Source: a virus. Taken from it: 23,703 nucleotides of DNA. A program made the translations under genes and the position numbers. Below the pieces are notes generated by a model. That model was not told the origin of the DNA. It made no database searches and saw nothing but the letters and a program-made list of their open reading frames with translations. This document shows positions 3,722 through 23,460 of the stretch, piece by piece. Positions within the stretch are counted from its first letter, which is position 1. Each line of letters starts with the position of its first letter. Location of the stretch: positions 1 through 23,703 of the IMG/VR virus record IMGVR_UViG_3300029319_000520, one strand, 5' to 3'.

Positions 3722-6495
3722 CAAATAGTTTTGGTATAACACCACAAAGACAGTTAAGGGATACATTTGTAAAACCTGAACAAAAAGATAGAGCACAACC
3801 TGCAACTCCTGAAATGACACCTCAACGTAGAGGTGGACAGTTATTAGATTTTCAAAATTTTGTACCTGATCAAGCTTTAGAACAAAGAGTACAATCTATA
3901 GAAAACTTTGTAAATCAAGCTAATAAATTAACAGGTACTTTAGTAAAACAAGAATCAGAAAAACAAGTAGCAGATGCAGAAAGGTTATTTGATAAAGTAG
4001 CTCAATATCAATTAGATAGTTTAGAAATAGGTGAAGTAGCTAAACAGTTAAGAAAGAAAGGTGAAAATAATTTAGCTGATGAGGTAGTAAGAAGTAATCC
4101 TTGGTTTAGATTTGGTTGGTTACAACAACAAGCTTCTTTTGCAGGTCAAGATACTATTTATAGAACTTATGATTTTGTAAATGCTAATATGGGAACTTTG
4201 TCGCAGATTGAAGATCCGACAGAAGTATCAAGAAAAGTAAATGAATATGCAACTAAATATTATGAGAAAAATTATCCTGGTATTCCGAATCAAATGTATT
4301 CGGCAAATGTTGCACCTATATTATCAAAAGGTTTACCTAGATTACTTGAAGGTATAAGAGATGAACATAGAAAATATCAATTAAATTTTTTAACACAAAA
4401 AGCATTACAAAGTCAATATTCTGCTGTTTCTGAATGGACTAGAAATACAAATGATTATAAAAGTGTAAAAGGTTTATTAGAATCAAGAATACTTTTAAAT
4501 AGTAATAATGATTTATTAGTAAATAAATTATTAGCTGCTAAACGAGATGCTATAAATAGTGGTTTAACTTATGACCAATATCGTAGTAGTGTTGAAATAC
4601 CTTTTTTAAAGAAATTTCCTATTGATTTAAATAACGATGGTATAAGCGATATAGAAGATAAAGGTTTATTAACTGAATTTAAAAGAGCACTTGCAAATGT
4701 AGAATTAGATGGTTTACCTGGTCAAAAATTATTAGATCAAATAGATCCAGAAACAAATCTTACTTTTAGAAGTTTAATTACAAATGCATCTAATCAAGCT
4801 ATACAAAATGAAGTAAGAATGAATACTGCCTTACAGCAATCAATTACTTTAGATAATAAAAGACTTAAAGATGATGGACAATTACATCTAAGAATGATAA
4901 CAGAGGGTTTAGATACTAGTGAAGCTTATTTAGCTAAAAGAGAGTTTCTTGACCAAGTAATAGAAGCTCAGAAATCAGGTGGAACAGTAAAAATGCATAT
5001 ATACAACACAGAAACAGGAGTTGTAGAATTAACAGATGTACCTATACCTAAATACCTTGATATAGAAGATTTTGAATCAAAGGTTATAGATAAACAGTTA
5101 GGAGCAACAGTAGATATAGATACTTACAATGCTGATTTAGCAAGAATAACTACTATAGGAGCACAAAATCCTAATGCAGATTTTTCAGATATTTTATCAA
5201 ACTATGAAAAAGGTGGTAAACAATATAATAAATTAGCTGAAAAAATACAAAAAATTAAAACTAATTTTGCAGCTAAAGATTGGAATCCTAGTTTAAAACA
5301 ATTAGGTACAAAAATGGAAAAAATAGCTAAAACAATAAATGAAGAATCTTTAGAAAATTATTTTAAAGAAAATTCAATTACAAGTAAAAGACAAAGAAAA
5401 GTAATTACAAATAATTTTAAAAATGCTTATAGCAATTATCAAAAATCAGAAGCATATGATTTAGCTATTAAATATGGAAGAAATAGAATAGCCGATGCAA
5501 CAGCAGAAGAACTTCAAGATCCTACTTGGTGGAACTCTGTTGCAGAAGATTTATCTAAACATTTACAATCAGACAGCTATTTTACAGATCCTAATCAATT
5601 TACAGGTGCTAATAATATTGATTCTGAAAAAACTTTAATGGTATATCAAAGAAACGATAATGGTGCAGTAGTAGGAAATGTAGATCGTGTATATACTAAC
5701 GAAGATTTTTTATCTGCAAATTCTAAATTAGTTAAAAGTGAAGCTTTAACAACTATGTTTAAAAGTGAACCAATGATAAATACAAGTACAGTAGAAAATT
5801 TATTATCAGCTTTATATACAGATAAAAATAGTTTTACACCTACAGCAGTTAACGATCTTAATGAAGGATTTAAATTAGCTAAAAGATTAAATGAAGGTTT
5901 AACTTTAGAAAACTTTTTAAAAGGTCAATTTAGTGATGGAGTTTTTCAAGTTGATTCTGGAGATTTAGAATTTAACTCACAAAAATTTAATCAATTAAGA
6001 AATAAATTAATGAATGTTACTGTTAATCGTTCAACAATAATAAAAGATCATGGTGAAACTACTACTGGTGGTAATTCAGGTATAAGTTTTCACATTGAAT
6101 CTAAAACATCTGGAGCTAAAAAACCTTTATCAATAAATATTCCTGTAAAAATGCAGATTACTAATGTAGCTTACGATGAAGGTAATTTAGGTCATTATTC
6201 AGAAGCAGTTGTACTTAATAATGGTAATGGTTTAAAAAAAGGAGATATTATAAGGTTATCTCATGCTCAAAACTTTAAAGTAAAAGTTGGTGAAGTATAT
6301 CAACCAGGACAAGTTTGGGGTACTCAACACTCACAATCTAGTTATTCGCCTAGTATAGATGGAGGTACTGGATTTCATTTATTTCTTGATATAAGAAGAA
6401 AAAATGAATATTTTCCTCAATACCAAGATCCTTTACCACAACACGTTACTAATGAAATTTTTAACAAATTTCTTAAAAATCGCTTATCACCATAA
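3718..6495 (+). CDS. Internal virion protein (T7 gp15-like) with a C-terminal M23/LytM-like domain
   Basis: This 925-residue protein occupies the gp15 position, the core protein that helps build the ejection conduit across the periplasm (T7 gp15 is 747 residues). Most of it looks helical and charged. The last ~140 residues differ, being beta-rich. They contain GDIIRLSHAQNFKVKVGEVY, then PGQVWGTQ, then GGTGFHLFLDI. This follows the order of M23/LytM endopeptidases, in which an LSH motif and a VKVGQ.V..G..IG stretch precede a terminal G.HLHFE motif. His849 and His887 match ligand or catalytic histidines, but the last HxH reads HLF and no clear HxxxD ligand pair is visible near SGISFHIE. I infer a degenerate or structurally repurposed peptidase domain. 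The start overlaps the previous stop (ATGA) and the end overlaps the next start (TAATG). Confidence 0.85.
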   Translation: MTNSFGITPQRQLRDTFVKPEQKDRAQPATPEMTPQRRGGQLLDFQNFVPDQALEQRVQSIENFVNQANKLTGTLVKQESEKQVADAERLFDKVAQYQLDSLEIGEVAKQLRKKGENNLADEVVRSNPWFRFGWLQQQASFAGQDTIYRTYDFVNANMGTLSQIEDPTEVSRKVNEYATKYYEKNYPGIPNQMYSANVAPILSKGLPRLLEGIRDEHRKYQLNFLTQKALQSQYSAVSEWTRNTNDYKSVKGLLESRILLNSNNDLLVNKLLAAKRDAINSGLTYDQYRSSVEIPFLKKFPIDLNNDGISDIEDKGLLTEFKRALANVELDGLPGQKLLDQIDPETNLTFRSLITNASNQAIQNEVRMNTALQQSITLDNKRLKDDGQLHLRMITEGLDTSEAYLAKREFLDQVIEAQKSGGTVKMHIYNTETGVVELTDVPIPKYLDIEDFESKVIDKQLGATVDIDTYNADLARITTIGAQNPNADFSDILSNYEKGGKQYNKLAEKIQKIKTNFAAKDWNPSLKQLGTKMEKIAKTINEESLENYFKENSITSKRQRKVITNNFKNAYSNYQKSEAYDLAIKYGRNRIADATAEELQDPTWWNSVAEDLSKHLQSDSYFTDPNQFTGANNIDSEKTLMVYQRNDNGAVVGNVDRVYTNEDFLSANSKLVKSEALTTMFKSEPMINTSTVENLLSALYTDKNSFTPTAVNDLNEGFKLAKRLNEGLTLENFLKGQFSDGVFQVDSGDLEFNSQKFNQLRNKLMNVTVNRSTIIKDHGETTTGGNSGISFHIESKTSGAKKPLSINIPVKMQITNVAYDEGNLGHYSEAVVLNNGNGLKKGDIIRLSHAQNFKVKVGEVYQPGQVWGTQHSQSSYSPSIDGGTGFHLFLDIRRKNEYFPQYQDPLPQHVTNEIFNKFLKNRLSP

Positions 6496-9400
6496 TGCCT
6501 TATAAAATTTTTCCAGATGGTTCTTATAAATATGGAGATACTCTTGATGAAGCTCAAGAGCCTTTTGAAGGTTCTAATGTACAAATAGAGCAAGAATCAA
6601 CTGTACCAACAGGAGAACAAGAAATTGTAAAAGAAGAAAAAGAAGAAGAGAAAAAACCTAGTTGGGTTAGTGAGACTTTAAAAACTTTAGGATCAATGAT
6701 TACACATATACCAGAAACGGTAACTGTGGCTGGTCAAAAATTAGCACAATCAACTCCTGAGTTTGTATTACAAGGTTTTGCATCTGGAGCTGCTGGAGGT
6801 TATGTTGATCCTAATCTTATGCTTATACAAAAAGCACAAAGAGAAGGTAAGCCAGTAAAAGAAGTTCTTGAAAAACAATTAGAAGAAGCAGAAAAAGGTC
6901 AAATAGCTGCAAGATTTAATATTTCACCTCCTACAGAAAATGGTGAATTTTATAAATTAGGAATATCAAAAGATATACCAGTTTTAGGTGCTTTTTCAGA
7001 TGAAGGTAAAATATACAAAGCATTTGAACCAGAAACAGAAACAGGTGAATTTATATCTGATTTAGGTCAACTTATAGTTTTATCTTCTATTATGCCTCAA
7101 GGTAGTCAAGTCTTTGGCTATGGTACTACTACAAAAACAGCAGCTTTAAAAGCTTTTGCTAAACCTAACAAAAAACATTTATTAGGATTAGGTTTAAAAA
7201 TATTTAAAGGTATAGGAGCTGAACTACCTCAAGATTTTTTAGAAGAACTATATTTATTTGCACCTCCAGATCCTACTGATGATCAAGAAGCTGAAATAAA
7301 TAGAATACTAAATTTAAATGATTCAGAAGTTAAATCAGCAGCTATAGATTTATTACTTTCAGATACAGATGCTGAAGCTGAATATTATGCAAATTATGGT
7401 GAAAACCTTAAAGGAGGTATGGCAGGTGCATTTGCTTTTCGTGGTATATTAGCTTCAGTAAATAATTTATTTAGATTACACAAAGCTAAAAAACTTAAAA
7501 ATTTAAAATTAACAGAAGCTGATGTAGATAAAGCATTAAATAAACCTATTAATGATGTAAAAGTAAAAGTAGAGGAAGCACAAACAAAAGGTTTAGAAGA
7601 ACAAAGAGAAAATGAATTATACGAATATAATTCTACATTTAACGGTATATATCAAGAATCATTACCTAATTTAAATAAAAAGATAACAGGTTTACATCAA
7701 GGTGATTTAGCTATACAAAAAGCATTAGAAGAGGGAGAAACAGCAGCTACTAAAGCTACAGAAATTAGTGATGCAAATGTAAAAGTTACAGATGAATTAA
7801 AACGTATAAATAAACTTTTAAAAGCAAGACAAGGTTCTATAAGAGATATAAATAGAGCAGCTAGAAATAATCCTGAATATTTTAATAGCCTTACTAATAA
7901 AAGACGTTTTAATCGTTATACAAAAGATTTAGATAAATATAAGAAACGTATAGATGAATTAAAAGGTGAATCAGAACAAAGACTTATAGATTTAGAAGAA
8001 CCAACATCACAAGGTCGTATAGCTTCAGCACAGTTTGATTCTTTACAAGCTAGTAGAGCTTTTGCAGTAAATGAATTTATAAATGAATTACAACCTTTAT
8101 TACAAAAATTAGATAGTTTACATACAGCAAGACTTAAAAATGGTGTAAATATATCTACTTTAGATGATGATCCTTTTTATCAATCATATAAAAATGTAAA
8201 ACAACTTTACGATAATTACGTTGCATTAGGTGGTCAAGGTAAAGCTGCTGGAGCAGATTTAGATCCAGGTTTAGAAAATACAAGGCAAGCTTTAGAAGTT
8301 AAATTATTAAACGGTATACAAGATGAATTTCAAAAATTAGAAGAATATGGAACTGTAGGTAATCTTGAAATAGATCCTAAAGCTTTAGAAATGGCTGCTG
8401 AAGAAGTAGGTCAACCTATGCCTAAAGCTAAAACTGATACAAAAGATGCTAAGAAAGGTGATGATAGTAGTGATGATCCTTGGTATAACAATACAGATCA
8501 AATGCCATTAAAACTTGATGAAGATGGCAGAGTAACAATAGATCCTGATGCTACTACTACAACTGGTACTACAACACAAGCACCTTTAAATAAAGAAGCA
8601 AGATTAAGACAAGCTCAAGTACGTTTAGGTTTAGGCGATTCTTATGCTAACTTACAACAGCAAAAAGGTGATGCAATAACAGATCTTGATTTAGATAAGT
8701 CTTTAGATGATTATGCAAAAAAAGAAGCTTTTTATGCTATGCAAGAACAGAAAGCTATACAAAATGGAACTAAAGTTCCTGATTCATGGGATAGGTTATC
8801 TTTAAGATCATTAGAAAGATCTGTAGGTAGATTTCCTGGATACAACCAAAGAAAATTAGCTTTGTTAGATGCTGTTAAAAATTTAAAAGGTCAACCAGAT
8901 GAAGTTACAAGTAGATTTTTAAAAAGATCATATCAATGGGCGGGTAAACTAGCTAACGCAGAAGCTGAGTTTGAAGATTTATATACATTGTTAGAAACAA
9001 GAAGATTAGCTAGAGGTAAAGCTATGGCAGGTGTAGAAGATGCCATGTTTGAAACAGGTGTTTTACCTTTACAGATTGGTGTAACAAGTTCACGTTTATA
9101 TAAAATTATGGGTGCTATTAGAGATCAAGCATCTAATTTAAATGCATCTGAATTACAAACATACAGAGCTTTAGCAGCTCAAGAAGCCTTAATTTTATAT
9201 CAATCAGTTGGTGATTTTATGCAGCTTCGTAACTTAGCTGGTAGTTTCTTAGCTAGTTTAAGAGGCACATTTATGGCAAAGATTGCTAATAGATTTGGTA
9301 AAGCTCAAGCTAAAGTTAGACAAGGTAAAAAGGCTGATGAATTATTTGAAGAGTTTGCAGATAATGCAAATACTTTAACTGTTAAGTTAGCAGAAGATGC

Positions 9401-18373: not shown

Positions 18374-18891
18374 TGGAAAAGCCTTTAATTAACATACCTT
18401 CAAGTGGTTCTATATTTATTCCTGGAAAGGTATCTTTTGAATTGCCTTTGGTAACTCCAGCTTCTTACGATCCATTTCTAATTCCTTCAAAGGAACAGAT
18501 GGAGTCAGCCCTTCAGGAAGAGAAGGTGAAAGAGTCCGAAGAATCAAAAGACGATTCAAATTCAACGGAAATAGGACCACAAGTAAAACCACCGTCAATA
18601 CCGACAAACCTGCCGAAACCCAAAGAAAACGTAACATCAGAAGAAGTATTAGCTACATTCACTATACCTTTGTTAGGTATGGAAATGGCAATTCCAACAC
18701 CTGAAGTTATTACAACGAGTGTTGTAGCTGCTGGTACAGCTTCTTTAATTACGGTGGCAGGTGGTATGGCGACTCAAACTGCTGTTAATTATTTAAAGAA
18801 AATATTTAAAAAAATCTTTACTAAGGTGTTGAAGAAGGAAGTGAAAGAGATTCAAAAGACTTCTGATTCTTCTTCACATAACTCGAAATAG
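18373..18891 (+). CDS. Membrane-anchored protein with basic amphipathic C-terminal helix, unknown function
   Basis: The frame opens with GTG at 18373, overlapping the upstream TAG by one base. Nothing upstream in this frame is a better start, and the N-terminus MEKPLINIPSSGSIFIPG looks ordinary. The 172 residues fall in three parts: a proline-rich, acidic and probably disordered stretch (about 20-95), one hydrophobic membrane segment (about 112-134, VITTSVVAAGTASLITVAGG), and a strongly basic amphipathic helix (139-160, NYLKKIFKKIFTKVLKKEV). A single membrane segment with a cationic helix at the T7 holin position could disturb membranes, so a lysis role is possible. That is inference. Its last 71 bases overlap the minus-strand gene converging on it. 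Confidence 0.75.
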   Translation: MEKPLINIPSSGSIFIPGKVSFELPLVTPASYDPFLIPSKEQMESALQEEKVKESEESKDDSNSTEIGPQVKPPSIPTNLPKPKENVTSEEVLATFTIPLLGMEMAIPTPEVITTSVVAAGTASLITVAGGMATQTAVNYLKKIFKKIFTKVLKKEVKEIQKTSDSSSHNSK

Positions 18892-19444
18892 ATATTATGT
18901 CTCCACATAAACCAAACATAGGACTTTTAGGATTTATCATATAACCCTGTGAATATAATTTTGCACATTGGTTAAATCTTATAAGCTCTCTATCGTAGTT
19001 AACTTTTAAATTTTCAGCCTCAGACCGCTTTATATTCCTTTGTACAAGCTCTAAACAGCTTTCATGATACTTTGCACCTAAAGGAACCATCCAACTTATC
19101 TGAAAACCCCATCCTTGACTTATAGAATATGCTTCTGATTGAGAATCATTACCAGTATAAAATGGTGTAAAACTCATACTAGGAGTTGAGCATACAATAT
19201 TACGTCCGTAATAATTTTTGCTTGTTGCTCCCTGGTTTATTTGCATATTTTGATTAATGATGCTGGAATTACCAACAGCATTAGGAGCTGCTATAGATTG
19301 ATTACCTTCTTCTTCTGCTTTTACTGGATTTCCTATTGAGAGAAGACAGATAAGGAAGTAATAGTAGAAGTTGTTGTGATATTTTCTGAAATATCGTGTT
19401 GCTCTACTAATCCAGCAGCTCTGGTTGTAATGTTTAGTGACCAC
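18821..19444 (-). CDS. Exported protein with four cysteines, last gene of the minus-strand operon
   Basis: The open frame gives 207 residues from a GTG at 19444, the only standard start upstream of the signal peptide. The signal sequence is unusual: a long basic N-region (residues 1-25), hydrophobic FYYYFLICLLSI, and likely cleavage after GNPVKA (43/44). The mature part has an Asn/Gln-rich stretch, then YYGRNIVC, MSFTPFY and WGFQISWMVPLG, with Cys85, 130, 160 and 180 available for two disulphides. I remember similar MSFTPFY/WGFQI proteins from cyanophages, as secreted proteins of unknown function. The first 112 bases lie inside the preceding minus gene in another frame. The last 71 overlap the converging plus-strand gene. 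The true start is uncertain; the gene itself is likely. Confidence 0.78.
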   Translation of the reverse strand: MVTKHYNQSCWISRATRYFRKYHNNFYYYFLICLLSIGNPVKAEEEGNQSIAAPNAVGNSSIINQNMQINQGATSKNYYGRNIVCSTPSMSFTPFYTGNDSQSEAYSISQGWGFQISWMVPLGAKYHESCLELVQRNIKRSEAENLKVNYDRELIRFNQCAKLYSQGYMINPKSPMFGLCGDIISISSYVKKNQKSFESLSLPSSTP

Positions 19445-19686
19445 GGTACTGTTGCATCACTTACAGTATAAGTTGTATCGGACGCAGTAATAGATGCACT
19501 AGGAGTTACGTTAGTACCTTCCCATGTGTTCACAGTAGATCCATATACCTGGATTTGGTGAGTACGGGTTATTGTCTGAGTAGTATTTGTAGTTGAGTTA
19601 CTACTACCTGTAGTGAATGCAGGTGTTATTTGGTTAGCTAATACTGCATTAGGTATTAGTAATGCTATTAATAATAATTTTTTCAT
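19333..19686 (-). CDS. Small exported Thr/Ser-rich protein, third gene of the minus-strand operon
   Basis: The 117-residue product has a textbook Sec signal peptide (MKKLLLIALLIPNAVLA, cleavage after residue 17). No lipobox cysteine is present, so it should be released to the periplasm or beyond and not anchored as a lipoprotein. The mature part is very rich in Thr, Ser and Asn (TTGSSNSTTNTTQTITRTH), predicted beta, and has no cysteine. The start ATG overlaps the previous stop (ATGA at 19683-19686). The 3' end runs 112 bases into the next gene. The length and signal recall a protein I remember from marine cyanophages, found beside the larger exported protein. No enzymatic motif is visible. 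Confidence 0.85.
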   Translation of the reverse strand: MKKLLLIALLIPNAVLANQITPAFTTGSSNSTTNTTQTITRTHQIQVYGSTVNTWEGTNVTPSASITASDTTYTVSDATVPWSLNITTRAAGLVEQHDISENITTTSTITSLSVFSQ

Positions 19687-19922
19687 TGTTTAGTTTCCCT
19701 TGGTTTAGAACTGCCACCATTTCTACCGTTACCAATAGACAAGCCTAGACTCGCAGTCGATGCTGAAAATACACTTGCTATAAAAGTCGGGTCAAAATCC
19801 AAAATCTTTTTACCATCAGGCTTTTCGTAGTATGAAACGGTTAATAAAAGTCCAGACCACAATAAAATTGTGATTTTTACTGCATCATGCAGCCACTCTC
19901 TTTTATTTTCTTCTTGTTCCAT
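19683..19922 (-). CDS. Two-membrane-segment small protein (holin-like candidate), second gene of the minus-strand operon
   Basis: This is a 79-residue protein with a charged N-terminus (MEQEENKREWLHDAVK). A first hydrophobic segment lies at about 14-32 (ITILLWSGLLLTVSYY), then a charged linker (EKPDGKKILDFD), then a second, weaker hydrophobic segment at about 46-64 (TFIASVFSASTASLGLSIG). The tail is polar, with a basic residue cluster. Size and two-segment topology suit a small class II-type holin, and the position beside two secreted proteins fits an envelope task. Many small phage membrane proteins look the same, so holin is only a suggestion. The start lies inside the preceding gene's last 20 bases, and the stop overlaps the next ATG. 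Confidence 0.75.
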   Translation of the reverse strand: MEQEENKREWLHDAVKITILLWSGLLLTVSYYEKPDGKKILDFDPTFIASVFSASTASLGLSIGNGRNGGSSKPRETKQ

Positions 19923-20139
19923 TGTTAAATCCTGGATGTTTGATTTCTATAAACCAATCCTTCTCTCCAAATTTACCATTTTCTACGACAATTGGCTGTG
20001 TAGTTTGCTCCAATTCATCCATTTGTTTATGGTAATTTTTAATTTCATTTGTAATATTAGCCTTAGTTTTTATTTCTCTATACCAAGCTATAATTAGATC
20101 TATGTAATATTTAATTAGTTTTTTAAAAAATAATGCCAT
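19903..20139 (-). CDS. Small protein with N-terminal amphipathic or membrane helix, first gene of the minus-strand operon
   Basis: This is a 78-residue product. The N-terminus (MALFFKKLIKYYIDLIIAWY) is a hydrophobic/amphipathic helix that could sit on or in a membrane. A charged helix follows (REIKTKANITNEIKNYHKQM), and the tail is beta-like and ends in basic residues (GTRRK). This layout is reminiscent of inner-membrane spanin-like or membrane-tethered proteins, but no diagnostic feature supports that. No clear Shine-Dalgarno sequence precedes the ATG at 20139. Its first seven bases overlap the first seven of the divergent gene at 20133. As the first gene it should carry the promoter of the minus operon, whose control region would lie inside the divergent coding sequence. 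A weak TTGCAG...TAGCAT pair with 15-base spacing is visible there. Confidence 0.68.
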   Translation of the reverse strand: MALFFKKLIKYYIDLIIAWYREIKTKANITNEIKNYHKQMDELEQTTQPIVVENGKFGEKDWFIEIKHPGFNNGTRRK

Positions 20140-21032: not shown

Positions 21033-21078
21033 AACCCTGGCATGACACATTCACCTCATGTTGGGGTTTTTGTGTTTT
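21033..21078 (+). terminator. Rho-independent terminator between the small terminase and HNH genes
   Basis: AACCCTGGCATGA (21033-21045) pairs along its whole length with TCATGTTGGGGTT (21056-21068). This gives a 13-pair stem with three central G-T wobbles and a ten-base loop, CACATTCACC. The stem runs directly into TTTTTGTGTTTT. This is the cleanest terminator in the window. The HNH ATG at 21096 lies only 18 bases past it. Downstream terminase expression therefore needs read-through, a phage polymerase that ignores the hairpin, or processing. Confidence 0.8.
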
Positions 21079-21095
21079 CTACGCCAGAGGATATT

Positions 21096-21389
21096 ATGGC
21101 AAATTTACAAGCCCTACAATCACAAGATGCTGTTAAACAATGGAGACAATCAATTAAAGAAGCTTTTAATTTTCAATGTGCTTACTGTGGTACAAAAAGT
21201 TTTAACTTAACACTAGATCATGTACAACCTAAAACTAAAGGAGGAGAAAACTTGTCAACTAATATTGTTCCAGCTTGTATAGCTTGTAATCAAGCAAAAG
21301 GTAGTCATAATTGGAAAGTGTGGTATCGTAAACATACTCGTTATTGTATAGAAAGAGAACAATTTATTAACAACTGGATTAGTGCCTGA
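21096..21389 (+). CDS. HNH endonuclease between the terminase subunits
   Basis: This 97-residue protein has a zinc-knuckle HNH fold: CAYC (Cys28 and Cys31), LDHVQP (Asp41, His42), GGENLSTNIVPAC (Asn56, Cys61) and CNQAKG (Cys64, Asn65). That is the complete DH...N...N pattern, so the enzyme should be active. HNH proteins beside terminases can assist cleavage at genome ends; others are free-standing homing enzymes. Context favours a packaging helper, by inference. I chose ATG at 21096, preceded by AGAGG, over an upstream ATG at 21042, because the latter would put the terminator inside the gene. Its TGA at 21387-21389 overlaps the large terminase GTG start. Confidence 0.88.
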   Translation: MANLQALQSQDAVKQWRQSIKEAFNFQCAYCGTKSFNLTLDHVQPKTKGGENLSTNIVPACIACNQAKGSHNWKVWYRKHTRYCIEREQFINNWISA

Positions 21390-23130
21390 TAAACATCAAC
21401 AGATTATAAAAGAAGCTATAGATAGTTTTCCTGTATTTGCTACTCATTTATGGCATTTTTTAAGGTTACCTAGTCCTACACCTGTTCAGTATCAATTAGC
21501 TGATTACCTGCAAAATGGTCCTAACAGAAGAATCATTATGGCATATAGAGGTTGTGGTAAAAGCTTCTTAACTGCTGGCTATGTGCTCTGGAGGCTGCGT
21601 AAAAACCCAGATACTAAAGTATTGGTCATATCAGCAGCACAAGACCGTGCAGACGCTTTTAGCGTGTTTTGCCATGACTTACTTAGAAACTGGTTTATGG
21701 TTAAGGATTTATTTCCTAGCGACACTCAAAGATTTTCTAAGGTAGCTTTTGATGTTTATGGTTCTAAACCTGATCAAAGTCCTTCAGTACGGTCAAGTGG
21801 TATTTTTGGACAAATAACTGGTTCCAGAGCTGATTTAATCGTAGCTGATGACGTAGAAACACCTCAAAGTTGTGAAACTCAACTTATAAGAGACAAACTT
21901 AGAGAATCTATTAAAGAATTTGACTCAATTATTAAACCTGGAGGTCAAATAGTCTTTCTTGGTACTCCTCACACACAAGACAGTATTTATGGAAAGTTAG
22001 AACTAGCTGGTTATACTCCCAGAATATGGACAGCTTTATACCCAACAGCTAGAAAACGTAAAGACTATTATCAACATCGACTAGCCCCTAAAATAGCTTC
22101 TGATTTAGATAAAGATTCTAGTTTAGCTGGTCATCCTGTAGATCCAGATAGATTTAACTGGGAAGAACTAGAGGCTCGTAAAGAATCAATAGGTAGGTCT
22201 ACTTTTAATCTTCAATTCTTATTAGACATTAGTTTATCTGATGAAGAAAGGTATCCTCTCAAATTAATGGATCTATGTGTATTTCGTTTAAACAGAGAAC
22301 AAGGTCCAGATAAGGTTGTATGGCTTGCTAACGGTGATAAAGCTTTAGATTTACCTTCTGTGGGGCTTCACGGTGATCTCTTTTACAAACCTGCTCAAAT
22401 CGGGTCTGAATTTATTGATTACACGGGGGTTGTACTCGCTGTGGACCCTTCTGGACGAGGCAGCGATGAGCTTGGCTATGCGGTAGTCGCCTACTTGAAT
22501 GGTAACCTCTTTCTCCTTGCTTCTGGAGGTCTTAGGGGCGGTTACAGCGAAGTTAATCTTAAGAAACTCTCCCTCATTGCGAAGGAATACAAGGTTAAAC
22601 AAATATTGGTTGAAAGCAACCTTGGACTCGGTATGTTCAGCGAGCTTTTGAAAAGATATTTGGGTACTATTTACCCATGCTCTATCGAAGAGGTCAGACA
22701 TACAAAACAAAAAGAAACTAGGATTATTGATACTCTTGAACCTGTCATGAACCAACACAGGCTCATGGTCGATACTGACATAATCGCTAAAGATATTGCT
22801 TCCACTCAATGCTATCCAACAGAAACTAGATCTCAATACCAGCTCTTTTGGCAAATGACCAGGATTACCAAAGAGAAAAATTCGATTAGACATGATGACC
22901 GCCTTGATGCTCTTGCAATGGCTGTGCAATTCTTTACAGAGAATATGGCATTAACTGAACAAAAAGCTATAAAAACTAGGGAACGAGAACAATGGGAACT
23001 AGAAAGACAGTTTATACAAGGTGAAGGTGGCTTAAACGTAGGAGTACTAGGTTACGCTAAATCTTTAGAAGATTTACAAAAAGCTTCTTTAGGTGCTTCA
23101 GGTGGTGCTAACTGGTTAGACGGATATTAA
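21382..23130 (+). CDS. Terminase large subunit (T7 gp19 / DNA maturase B-like)
   Basis: This 582-residue packaging motor has an N-terminal ATPase and a C-terminal nuclease. Visible are Walker A RGCGKS (56-61), SAAQDRAD (84-91), SPSVRSSGIFGQITGSRAD (133-151), Walker B LIVADDVE (152-159) and FLGTPHTQ (192-199). The nuclease has VDPSGRGSDELGYAV (354-368), ESNLGLGMF (411-419) and HDDRLDALA (504-512), supplying acidic metal ligands. All match T7 gp19 in order and length. It starts with GTG at 21382, eight bases inside the HNH gene, with an N-terminus of family-like length. Between residues 329 and 511 codon use departs sharply from the rest of the gene (no TTA leucine codons). The call is firm. 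Confidence 0.97.
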   Translation: MPDKHQQIIKEAIDSFPVFATHLWHFLRLPSPTPVQYQLADYLQNGPNRRIIMAYRGCGKSFLTAGYVLWRLRKNPDTKVLVISAAQDRADAFSVFCHDLLRNWFMVKDLFPSDTQRFSKVAFDVYGSKPDQSPSVRSSGIFGQITGSRADLIVADDVETPQSCETQLIRDKLRESIKEFDSIIKPGGQIVFLGTPHTQDSIYGKLELAGYTPRIWTALYPTARKRKDYYQHRLAPKIASDLDKDSSLAGHPVDPDRFNWEELEARKESIGRSTFNLQFLLDISLSDEERYPLKLMDLCVFRLNREQGPDKVVWLANGDKALDLPSVGLHGDLFYKPAQIGSEFIDYTGVVLAVDPSGRGSDELGYAVVAYLNGNLFLLASGGLRGGYSEVNLKKLSLIAKEYKVKQILVESNLGLGMFSELLKRYLGTIYPCSIEEVRHTKQKETRIIDTLEPVMNQHRLMVDTDIIAKDIASTQCYPTETRSQYQLFWQMTRITKEKNSIRHDDRLDALAMAVQFFTENMALTEQKAIKTREREQWELERQFIQGEGGLNVGVLGYAKSLEDLQKASLGASGGANWLDGY

Positions 23131-23244: not shown

Positions 23245-23460
23245 ATGACTAGGAATTATAGAAAGGAATATGATAATTACCAAGGTAAACCTGAACAAAT
23301 TGCTAATAGAAGTAGTAGAAATACCGCTAGACGTAAGCTAAAAAACTCTGGTTATAAGTTAAAAGGTAAAGATGTTGATCATAAAGACGGTAACCCAAAA
23401 AACAACAGTATAGCTAACCTTAGAGTAAGATCAAAAAGTTCTAATAGGTCTAGGAAATAG
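23245..23460 (+). CDS. Small HNH-type nuclease-like protein, 71 aa
   Basis: The product is very basic, starting MTRNYRKEYDNYQGKPEQIA. The second half carries the short HNH signature KDVDHKDGNPKNNSIANLRV: Asp45-His46, Asn50, the NN pair at 53/54 and Asn58. This matches the one-finger HNH motif (DH.D....N....NLR) of phage-borne nucleases and homing enzymes. No CxxC zinc knuckle is present, so it belongs to a different HNH branch from the protein at 21096. I recall proteins with this start and motif near the terminases of marine T7-like phages. There is no Shine-Dalgarno sequence before the ATG, and the leader is all A/T. A packaging or end-processing helper, or a homing element, are the main options. 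Confidence 0.85.
   Translation: MTRNYRKEYDNYQGKPEQIANRSSRNTARRKLKNSGYKLKGKDVDHKDGNPKNNSIANLRVRSKSSNRSRK

Follow-up and report, generated by a model that had tools for sequence, protein, structure and literature searches.

A nested antisense gene as the probable source of a codon-use island in the terminase gene of P-RSP2-related phages

In an IMG/VR virus record of 23,703 nucleotides (the whole stretch analysed, called here the window), the nuclease half of the terminase large subunit gene (terL) shows a codon use of its own, and the opposite strand is open over the same block. The original prediction offered two explanations: replacement of the segment from a higher-GC relative, or a second role of the DNA. 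Which of them accounts for the codon pattern? Comparison with related TerLs argues for a second role, in the form of a protein-coding gene nested antisense in terL. The features concerned are:

21382-23130, + strand: terL coding sequence, T7 gp19-type terminase large subunit, 582 aa, host frame of the overlap
TerL residues 353, 409 and 504, + strand: nuclease motifs AVDPSG, LVESN and HDDRLDA, respectively (motif positions in the sequence)
22351-22893, - strand: putative nested antisense gene, 180 codons, wholly within terL and in phase with terL codons
22891-22893, - strand: antisense start ATG, opposite the His504 codon CAT of motif HDDRLDA
22351-22353, - strand: antisense stop TAA, opposite TerL codon 324

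The codon island and its opposite frame

The window TerL is of the T7 gp19 type: it has both the RNase H-like nuclease domain and homology to gp19, and matches PF22530 (E 4.1e-38, above cut-off) and phrog_38 (E 2e-107). Solved relatives are 8dgc (E 2e-130) and 4bij, 'DNA maturase B' (E 7e-118). TerL of the Prochlorococcus phage P-RSP2 is 99.3% identical to it, those of all other phage records being <60% identical. Among marine cyanopodoviruses, P-RSP2 has been described as an outlier that accounts for ~3-4% of cyanopodovirus reads (PMC9860041). HNH endonuclease-like genes lie on both sides of terL, HNH/HNH_5 upstream (21042-21389, + strand) and HNH_3 downstream (23245-23460, + strand); they could aid packaging or promote gene-conversion tracts inside terL.

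Residues 329-511 of the window TerL are encoded with exactly 23 leucine codons, 10 CTT, 9 CTC and 4 TTG. TTA and CTA do not occur, TCA is also absent, and TTA codons sit at residues 322, 324 and 524. GC3 is about 0.41-0.42 inside this island and 0.19-0.20 on both flanks. The leucine counts of the original prediction were thereby reproduced exactly, and its sharp borders confirmed. The in-phase opposite frame of the window is open across residues 325-523. Antisense stops are common elsewhere in the gene (37), and shuffling of Leu and Ser codons within the coding sequence gave no antisense open run of at least 199 codons in 200,000 trials (maximum 178, mean 62).

The 192 open codons announced for the opposite strand correspond to a TTG-start ORF (22351-22929, - strand, 192 aa). 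Its openness stood, its start did not: in most relatives residue 508, residue 511 or both give an antisense stop, so that translation would not begin at the TTG at 22929. The true start is most likely the ATG at 22893, opposite TerL codon 504, for an ORF of 180 codons. Its codons are then the reverse complements of the TerL codons from residue 504 down to 325, and TTA codon 324 provides the stop. Over the island, only the sense frame and the in-phase antisense frame are open; the other four average 7-18 stops. In P-RSP2 the ORF falls at positions 4275-4814 of HQ332139, where the annotation has no feature on the antisense strand.

Conservation of the frame and selection on both strands

A first set of 82 sequences was assembled from 80 TerL relatives in viral contigs, P-RSP2 and the window (nucleotide identity to the window ~0.7-0.99). 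With each sequence's own codon use outside as expectation, 857 antisense stops were expected over residues 329-511 and 92 observed. All 82 sequences had fewer than predicted, and the remaining stops lie mostly upstream of the antisense ATG/GTG, at residues 508 and 511. A nonredundant set of 62, reduced to 61 by leaving out L044, contains no TTA, one CTA and one TCA in residues 330-507, compared with 328, 438 and 238 outside; the sole CTA and the sole TCA both belong to L068. Expressed as inside/outside ratios, use of these three codons is 0.00-0.01, whereas ATA (1.79), CCA (1.40), CAA (1.28) and GGA (1.18) are enriched inside, AGA, AAA and CGA are also as common or commoner there, and GCA (0.40), ACA (0.68) and GAA (0.71) drop mildly. 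Since TTA, CTA and TCA are avoided while most other A-ending codons are free, the signal is specific to codons whose reverse complement is a stop. Narnavirus reverse ORFs have been described with the same avoidance (PMC7010960).

When the set was enlarged to 123 distinct TerLs of the clade that cover the full stretch (80-100% amino acid identity to the window TerL), the frame was open in 119, the exceptions being L044 (8 antisense stops), L273 (7), L186 (4) and L068 (2). A shuffle test on 15 sequences gave a null maximum of 31 open antisense codons (300 shuffles) against the 181 observed. The ends of the frame are kept too. Opposite residue 504, 71 of 89 nonredundant members have ATG and 18 have GTG, and in 89/89 the stop falls at TerL residue 322, 324, 326 or 329. 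Product length among the first 82 sequences is 178-182 codons, apart from 175 in L069 and the broken frames of L068 and L044. As His504 by itself forces an antisense ATG or GTG, its CAT/CAC choice was tested against that of other His codons. GC-rich members (n=48) use CAT, giving ATG, at His504 in 46 cases, compared with 270 CAC and 127 CAT at other His codons (Fisher p 1e-18). AT-richer members (n=41) have 25 CAT and 16 CAC at this position vs 140 CAT and 194 CAC elsewhere, an apparent but weaker leaning.

Thirteen distant TerLs (<=52% identical; T7, P60, P-SCSP, roseophage and pelagiphage examples included) fall only slightly short of the ~118 antisense stops expected in the homologous stretch, with 98. 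One of them, the TerL of a Limnohabitans phage, has an antisense open run of up to 314 codons and 0 stops in the homologous stretch with 0.4 expected; it is uninformative on avoidance because of its high GC (GC3 ~0.9). Little or no avoidance in the 13 outside TerLs indicates that the antisense gene is clade-specific, younger than terL, and arose by overprinting. A tblastn search with the antisense protein matched 588 and 171 phage records, as expected from terL homology alone, and is no evidence either way. Standalone copies were not found: terL was opposite and intact at 160/160 loci fetched, and the gene is present once per record in 11 records and once in P-RSP2. GTDB genome contigs gave zero relatives. 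A weak scan of P-RSP2 for antisense islands, in which 8 of 28 genes of at least 100 aa (terL + 7) had at least 4 sequences for comparison, found no comparable run in the 7 other genes.

Constraint on terL was then expressed as synonymous change per 15 codons relative to expectation. It is 0.44-0.79 over residues 326-505, vs 0.85-1.16 before residue 326 and 0.87-1.24 after 505 (1.24 at 506-520). The reduction is confined to 326-505, so both borders of the footprint coincide with those of the ORF. Conservation of TerL is not the cause of the reduced synonymous change, as nonsynonymous terL changes are almost as frequent per codon inside (1.78) as outside (1.84).

The double-synonym test proposed for narnaviruses (PMC8155312) was applied, in which synonymous terL changes are mapped on trees and classed by their effect in the antisense frame. 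Dereplication of 112 members at 98.5%, with exclusion of the four alleles that lack an intact frame, gave 89 taxa. Trees for the island (residues 330-504) and the N half (11-318) were built separately, and the ratios below compare island with N half. Changes synonymous in both frames are not reduced (transitions 1.08, 0.72-1.47; transversions 1.91, 1.33-3.02), whereas those altering the antisense protein are (transitions 0.67, 0.60-0.76; transversions 0.62, 0.48-0.75), with ratios of ratios of 1.61 (1.09-2.25) for transitions and 3.10 (2.10-4.98) for transversions. Antisense-radical transversions stand at 0.49 (0.34-0.63); neither antisense-conservative transversions (0.88, 0.67-1.18) nor radical transitions (0.78, 0.55-1.06) reach significance by themselves. 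Changes that create a stop number 0 in 5,042 island opportunities vs 518/13,368 in the N half, which leads to an expectation of ~175. An earlier run on 90 taxa and a single tree agreed with this in outline and contained 3 stop changes. Doubly synonymous changes being unreduced and antisense-altering ones reduced, selection acts on the antisense protein itself.

From these sequence comparisons, we give a probability of about 0.9 to the reading of the codon island as the footprint of a second protein-coding gene, nested antisense in terL and under protein-level selection. The second role of the DNA considered in the original prediction is strongly supported in the form of a coding gene kept across the clade. 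The relation it proposed between codon use and open strand has to be turned round: the opening would not be a side effect of codon use, the antisense gene being the cause of the island.

Could the opposite frame be open by chance? GC-rich TerLs can contain long shadow ORFs, as the 314-codon run of the Limnohabitans phage illustrates, and the possibility is negligible here, being refuted by the shuffles of the window and of the 15 sequences (0/200,000; 181 codons vs 31) and by the stop-change test (0 vs 175). Synonymous sites held over ~540 nt would also be compatible with a constraint on the nucleic acid, through RNA structure, an antisense regulatory RNA, a promoter or a packaging signal, and the T7-like phage LUZ100 is reported to have an antisense RNA in its structural region that lacks an obvious coding sequence (PMC10134795). 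We regard this as very improbable: a signal of this kind would not single out the codons that create stops in one phase, would not spare doubly synonymous changes and would not end at start and stop codons, and an Rfam search of both strands gave nothing at E up to 1. Only marginally more credible, and still very unlikely, is a narnavirus-like use, where the antisense frame must be translatable and ribosomes on the transcript matter, the product being irrelevant. A role of translation itself has been proposed for Culex narnavirus 1 (PMC8316113), and stop avoidance in terL (0 vs ~175 expected) far exceeds the amino-acid constraint (a reduction of about one-third). Against this, the double-synonym test favours a functional antisense protein, the frame occupies 180 codons delimited by a start and a stop and does not span the whole gene, and a dsDNA phage has no evident equivalent of the need of an RNA genome to be coated with ribosomes.

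Recombination within terL

The proposed replacement of the segment is a separate matter, for which the following tract is relevant:

22324-22881 (approximate), no strand: recombined tract, TerL residues ~315-500, shared with L017/L018/L042/L037, L009 and L030-type lineages

Its extent is nearly the same as that of the antisense gene. Nucleotide identity between the window and the L017/L009/L030 groups is 0.88-0.90 in the island, 0.79-0.82 in the N half and 0.72-0.80 at the C end. In 40-codon windows, these lineages differ from the window at 0.30-0.64 of synonymous codons before residue 300 and at 0.09-0.33 in windows starting at 321-461, with a rise after 500, while other marine members differ by 0.30-0.64 throughout. 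The island tree places the window with the L017/L009/L030-type lineages (SH-aLRT 97) and the N tree with L007/L010 (97). By AU test, the island data reject the N-half grouping (p 1e-56); the N-half data do not reject the island grouping (p 0.349).

Alleles without the gene have conflicting histories as well. L044 is 0.911 identical to L035 in the N part and 0.872 in the C part, vs 0.788 in the island. L186 and L273 share a gene-less nuclease half (0.895) and their N halves differ; both come from one metagenome (3300046777), as if an allele without the antisense gene were circulating. The conflicting halves of the window, L044 and L186/L273 indicate that homologous exchange transfers the segment between lineages, whether or not it contains the gene.

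Is import then sufficient, with the open antisense strand as a by-product of the codon use of a recombinant block from a higher-GC relative? These conflicts favour it, as does the GC3 contrast of the window (0.42 vs 0.19), larger than that of the donor-like L017 (0.40 vs 0.31). However, avoidance of TTA, CTA and TCA is clade-wide, GC-rich members with whole-terL GC3 of ~0.5-0.6 included, and it targets stop complements and not A-ending codons. In the gene-less alleles L044, L186 and L273, island GC3 is at or below that of the flank (it is slightly above in L068, with its 2 stops). Import as sole cause is refuted by the stop-complement specificity together with the double-synonym test, and we attach very little probability to it. 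The separate phylogenies, set beforehand as a check on the original prediction, turned out mixed: relatives share the codon pattern, which speaks for constraint, yet the histories of the two halves differ, which speaks for recombination. Of the suggested replacement, what stands is that the island has a more recent ancestor in common with L017/L009/L030 than its flanks have; the codon pattern is not explained by it, because all these relatives share that pattern, GC-rich ones included. The strong GC3 contrast of the window probably combines donor composition and constraint.

Contigs L279, L280/L282, L275 and L276 end or gap inside terL at residues 320-448, some of them near the end of the antisense gene, as if assemblies broke at a recombination border.

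Product, expression and relation to known systems

The predicted antisense protein of the window has 180 aa, 20.9 kDa and a pI of 9.8 (4.9 to 10.0 across 89 members), with no transmembrane-like stretch (maximum 19-residue hydropathy 1.1). Profile searches of Pfam, PHROGs, NCBIfam, PADLOC and PDB sequences yielded no credible hit. AlphaFold models reached pLDDT 73.0 and pTM 0.74 for the window protein (59 sequences; the five models of that run span pLDDT 73-40), and pLDDT 76.1 and pTM 0.77 for a second representative, 56% identical (89 sequences), with the same strand order. Foldseek of the model against PDB and BFVD gave nothing at E <=0.001, and the best VIA-align hits are at noise level (Z 3.4, rmsd 3.4, 64 aligned; Z 2.8, rmsd 3.5, 68 aligned). 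The models are beta-rich and of moderate confidence; the product is probably beta-rich, and its fold may be new. The model may instead have been shaped by covariation of the overlapping nuclease and mirror its RNase H fold; the predicted strands E76-84 and E108-120 lie, however, opposite TerL stretches that a reading of the sequence would make helices.

How could such a gene be expressed? An AGG/GGA/GAG core is present in the 16 nt before the start in only 29/89 members, which is uninformative as to a Shine-Dalgarno sequence, and promoter-like sites (8 vs 4.8, sd 2.1, in shuffles) are not clearly above background. Residues 506-520, just upstream of the start, lack synonymous constraint, so a conserved promoter or leader is not seen inside terL. 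Clade members L078, L081, L040, L055, L054, L183 and others have opposite-strand ORFs of ~45-75 codons within ~100 nt of the terL stop; they run in the direction of the antisense gene and vary from member to member. On the window, four minus-strand ORFs (18821-20139; 207, 117, 79 and 78 aa, one matching DUF6450) occupy the interval from the tail genes to terL and run opposite to the late genes; the corresponding strand of P-RSP2 bears features at 7028-8597. These small ORFs near terL make leftward transcription across the gene plausible.

We propose that overprinting created the antisense gene de novo, in the ancestor of the P-RSP2-related clade of T7-like phages or earlier. Selection would since have purged the stop-making TTA, CTA and TCA codons, along with many synonymous terL changes that alter antisense amino acids, and the odd codon use, bordered by the gene's own start and stop, would be the result. 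Translation of a leftward transcript starting downstream of terL would begin at the ATG or GTG opposite His504 and yield a protein of ~21 kDa, soluble and probably beta-rich. Homologous recombination in terL would exchange the segment between lineages and could remove the gene. The four of 123 TerLs without an intact copy, together with this exchangeability, suggest that the gene is not essential, and an accessory host-facing role, in takeover or counter-defence, would be the likeliest; we offer it tentatively, at odds well below even. A regulator of the phage's own terminase is less likely. The sequences themselves show the gene with its borders, the selection on its protein, its restriction to the clade and its exchange, whereas its transcription, translation and function are inferred.

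Antisense overlapping genes are already known as a kind. Ambigrammatic narnaviruses (PMC7010960, PMC8155312, PMC8316113, PMC6884476) offer a close parallel, with a frame that has no homologues, is found in one clade and overlaps a hallmark enzyme. Narnaviruses are RNA viruses with a reverse ORF opposite nearly the whole RdRp, whereas here, in a dsDNA phage, 180 of 582 codons within one domain are concerned, and the double-synonym test that argued against a functional reverse protein there (PMC8155312) argues for one in terL. The olo genes (PMC9927249), laoB (PMC5810103) and ano (PMC5960689) of E. coli O157:H7 are likewise embedded antisense coding ORFs, described as overprinted. Among the lengths compared, oloz0137 has 177 nt and ano 186 bp, vs ~540 nt in terL; those genes rest on expression and phenotype, the terL one on comparison of >100 TerLs. 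Annotated antisense coding overlaps have been counted in 490 dsDNA virus genomes, 21/347 Podoviridae among them (PMC7017920). These are apparently annotation counts without a selection test; the terL antisense ORF is unannotated in P-RSP2. T7 genes 19.2 and 19.3 are also small ORFs nested in gene 19 (gp19/terL), but on its own strand, and the T7 antisense frame is not open in the homologous stretch (2 stops, 5.6 expected). The literature searched, subscription papers lying mostly outside it, describes no antisense gene inside the terminase gene of a phage.

What may be new, at roughly even odds in our judgement, is a protein family, probably with its own beta-rich fold, overprinted opposite the packaging-motor nuclease, kept by protein-level selection in P-RSP2 relatives and passed on as a homologous-recombination cassette with borders matching the gene, presence and absence alleles circulating in one phage population. 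Long, fully nested antisense genes have often been claimed and rarely shown. The terL case offers >100 diverged TerLs, natural gene-less alleles as controls and a test passed that narnavirus reverse ORFs failed. A cultured carrier exists (P-RSP2 on Prochlorococcus MIT9302), which makes direct expression tests feasible. Annotation can miss such a gene even within a hallmark gene, and phylogenies of the TerL nuclease half in this clade carry both the constraint of a second gene and recombination.

Two further observations concern the surroundings of terL in relatives. Many GC-rich ones (e.g. L070, L082, L191) have a repeated GC-rich block, GGGGCCTTxxAGGGGCTTCTAGGGGCCTCTCAGAG, after the terL stop, possibly a terminator or packaging-end signal. 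Contig L474, of 125,842 bases and possibly a misassembly, a provirus or a host contig, is ~3x the size of the P-RSP2 genome, and its TerL carries the antisense gene.
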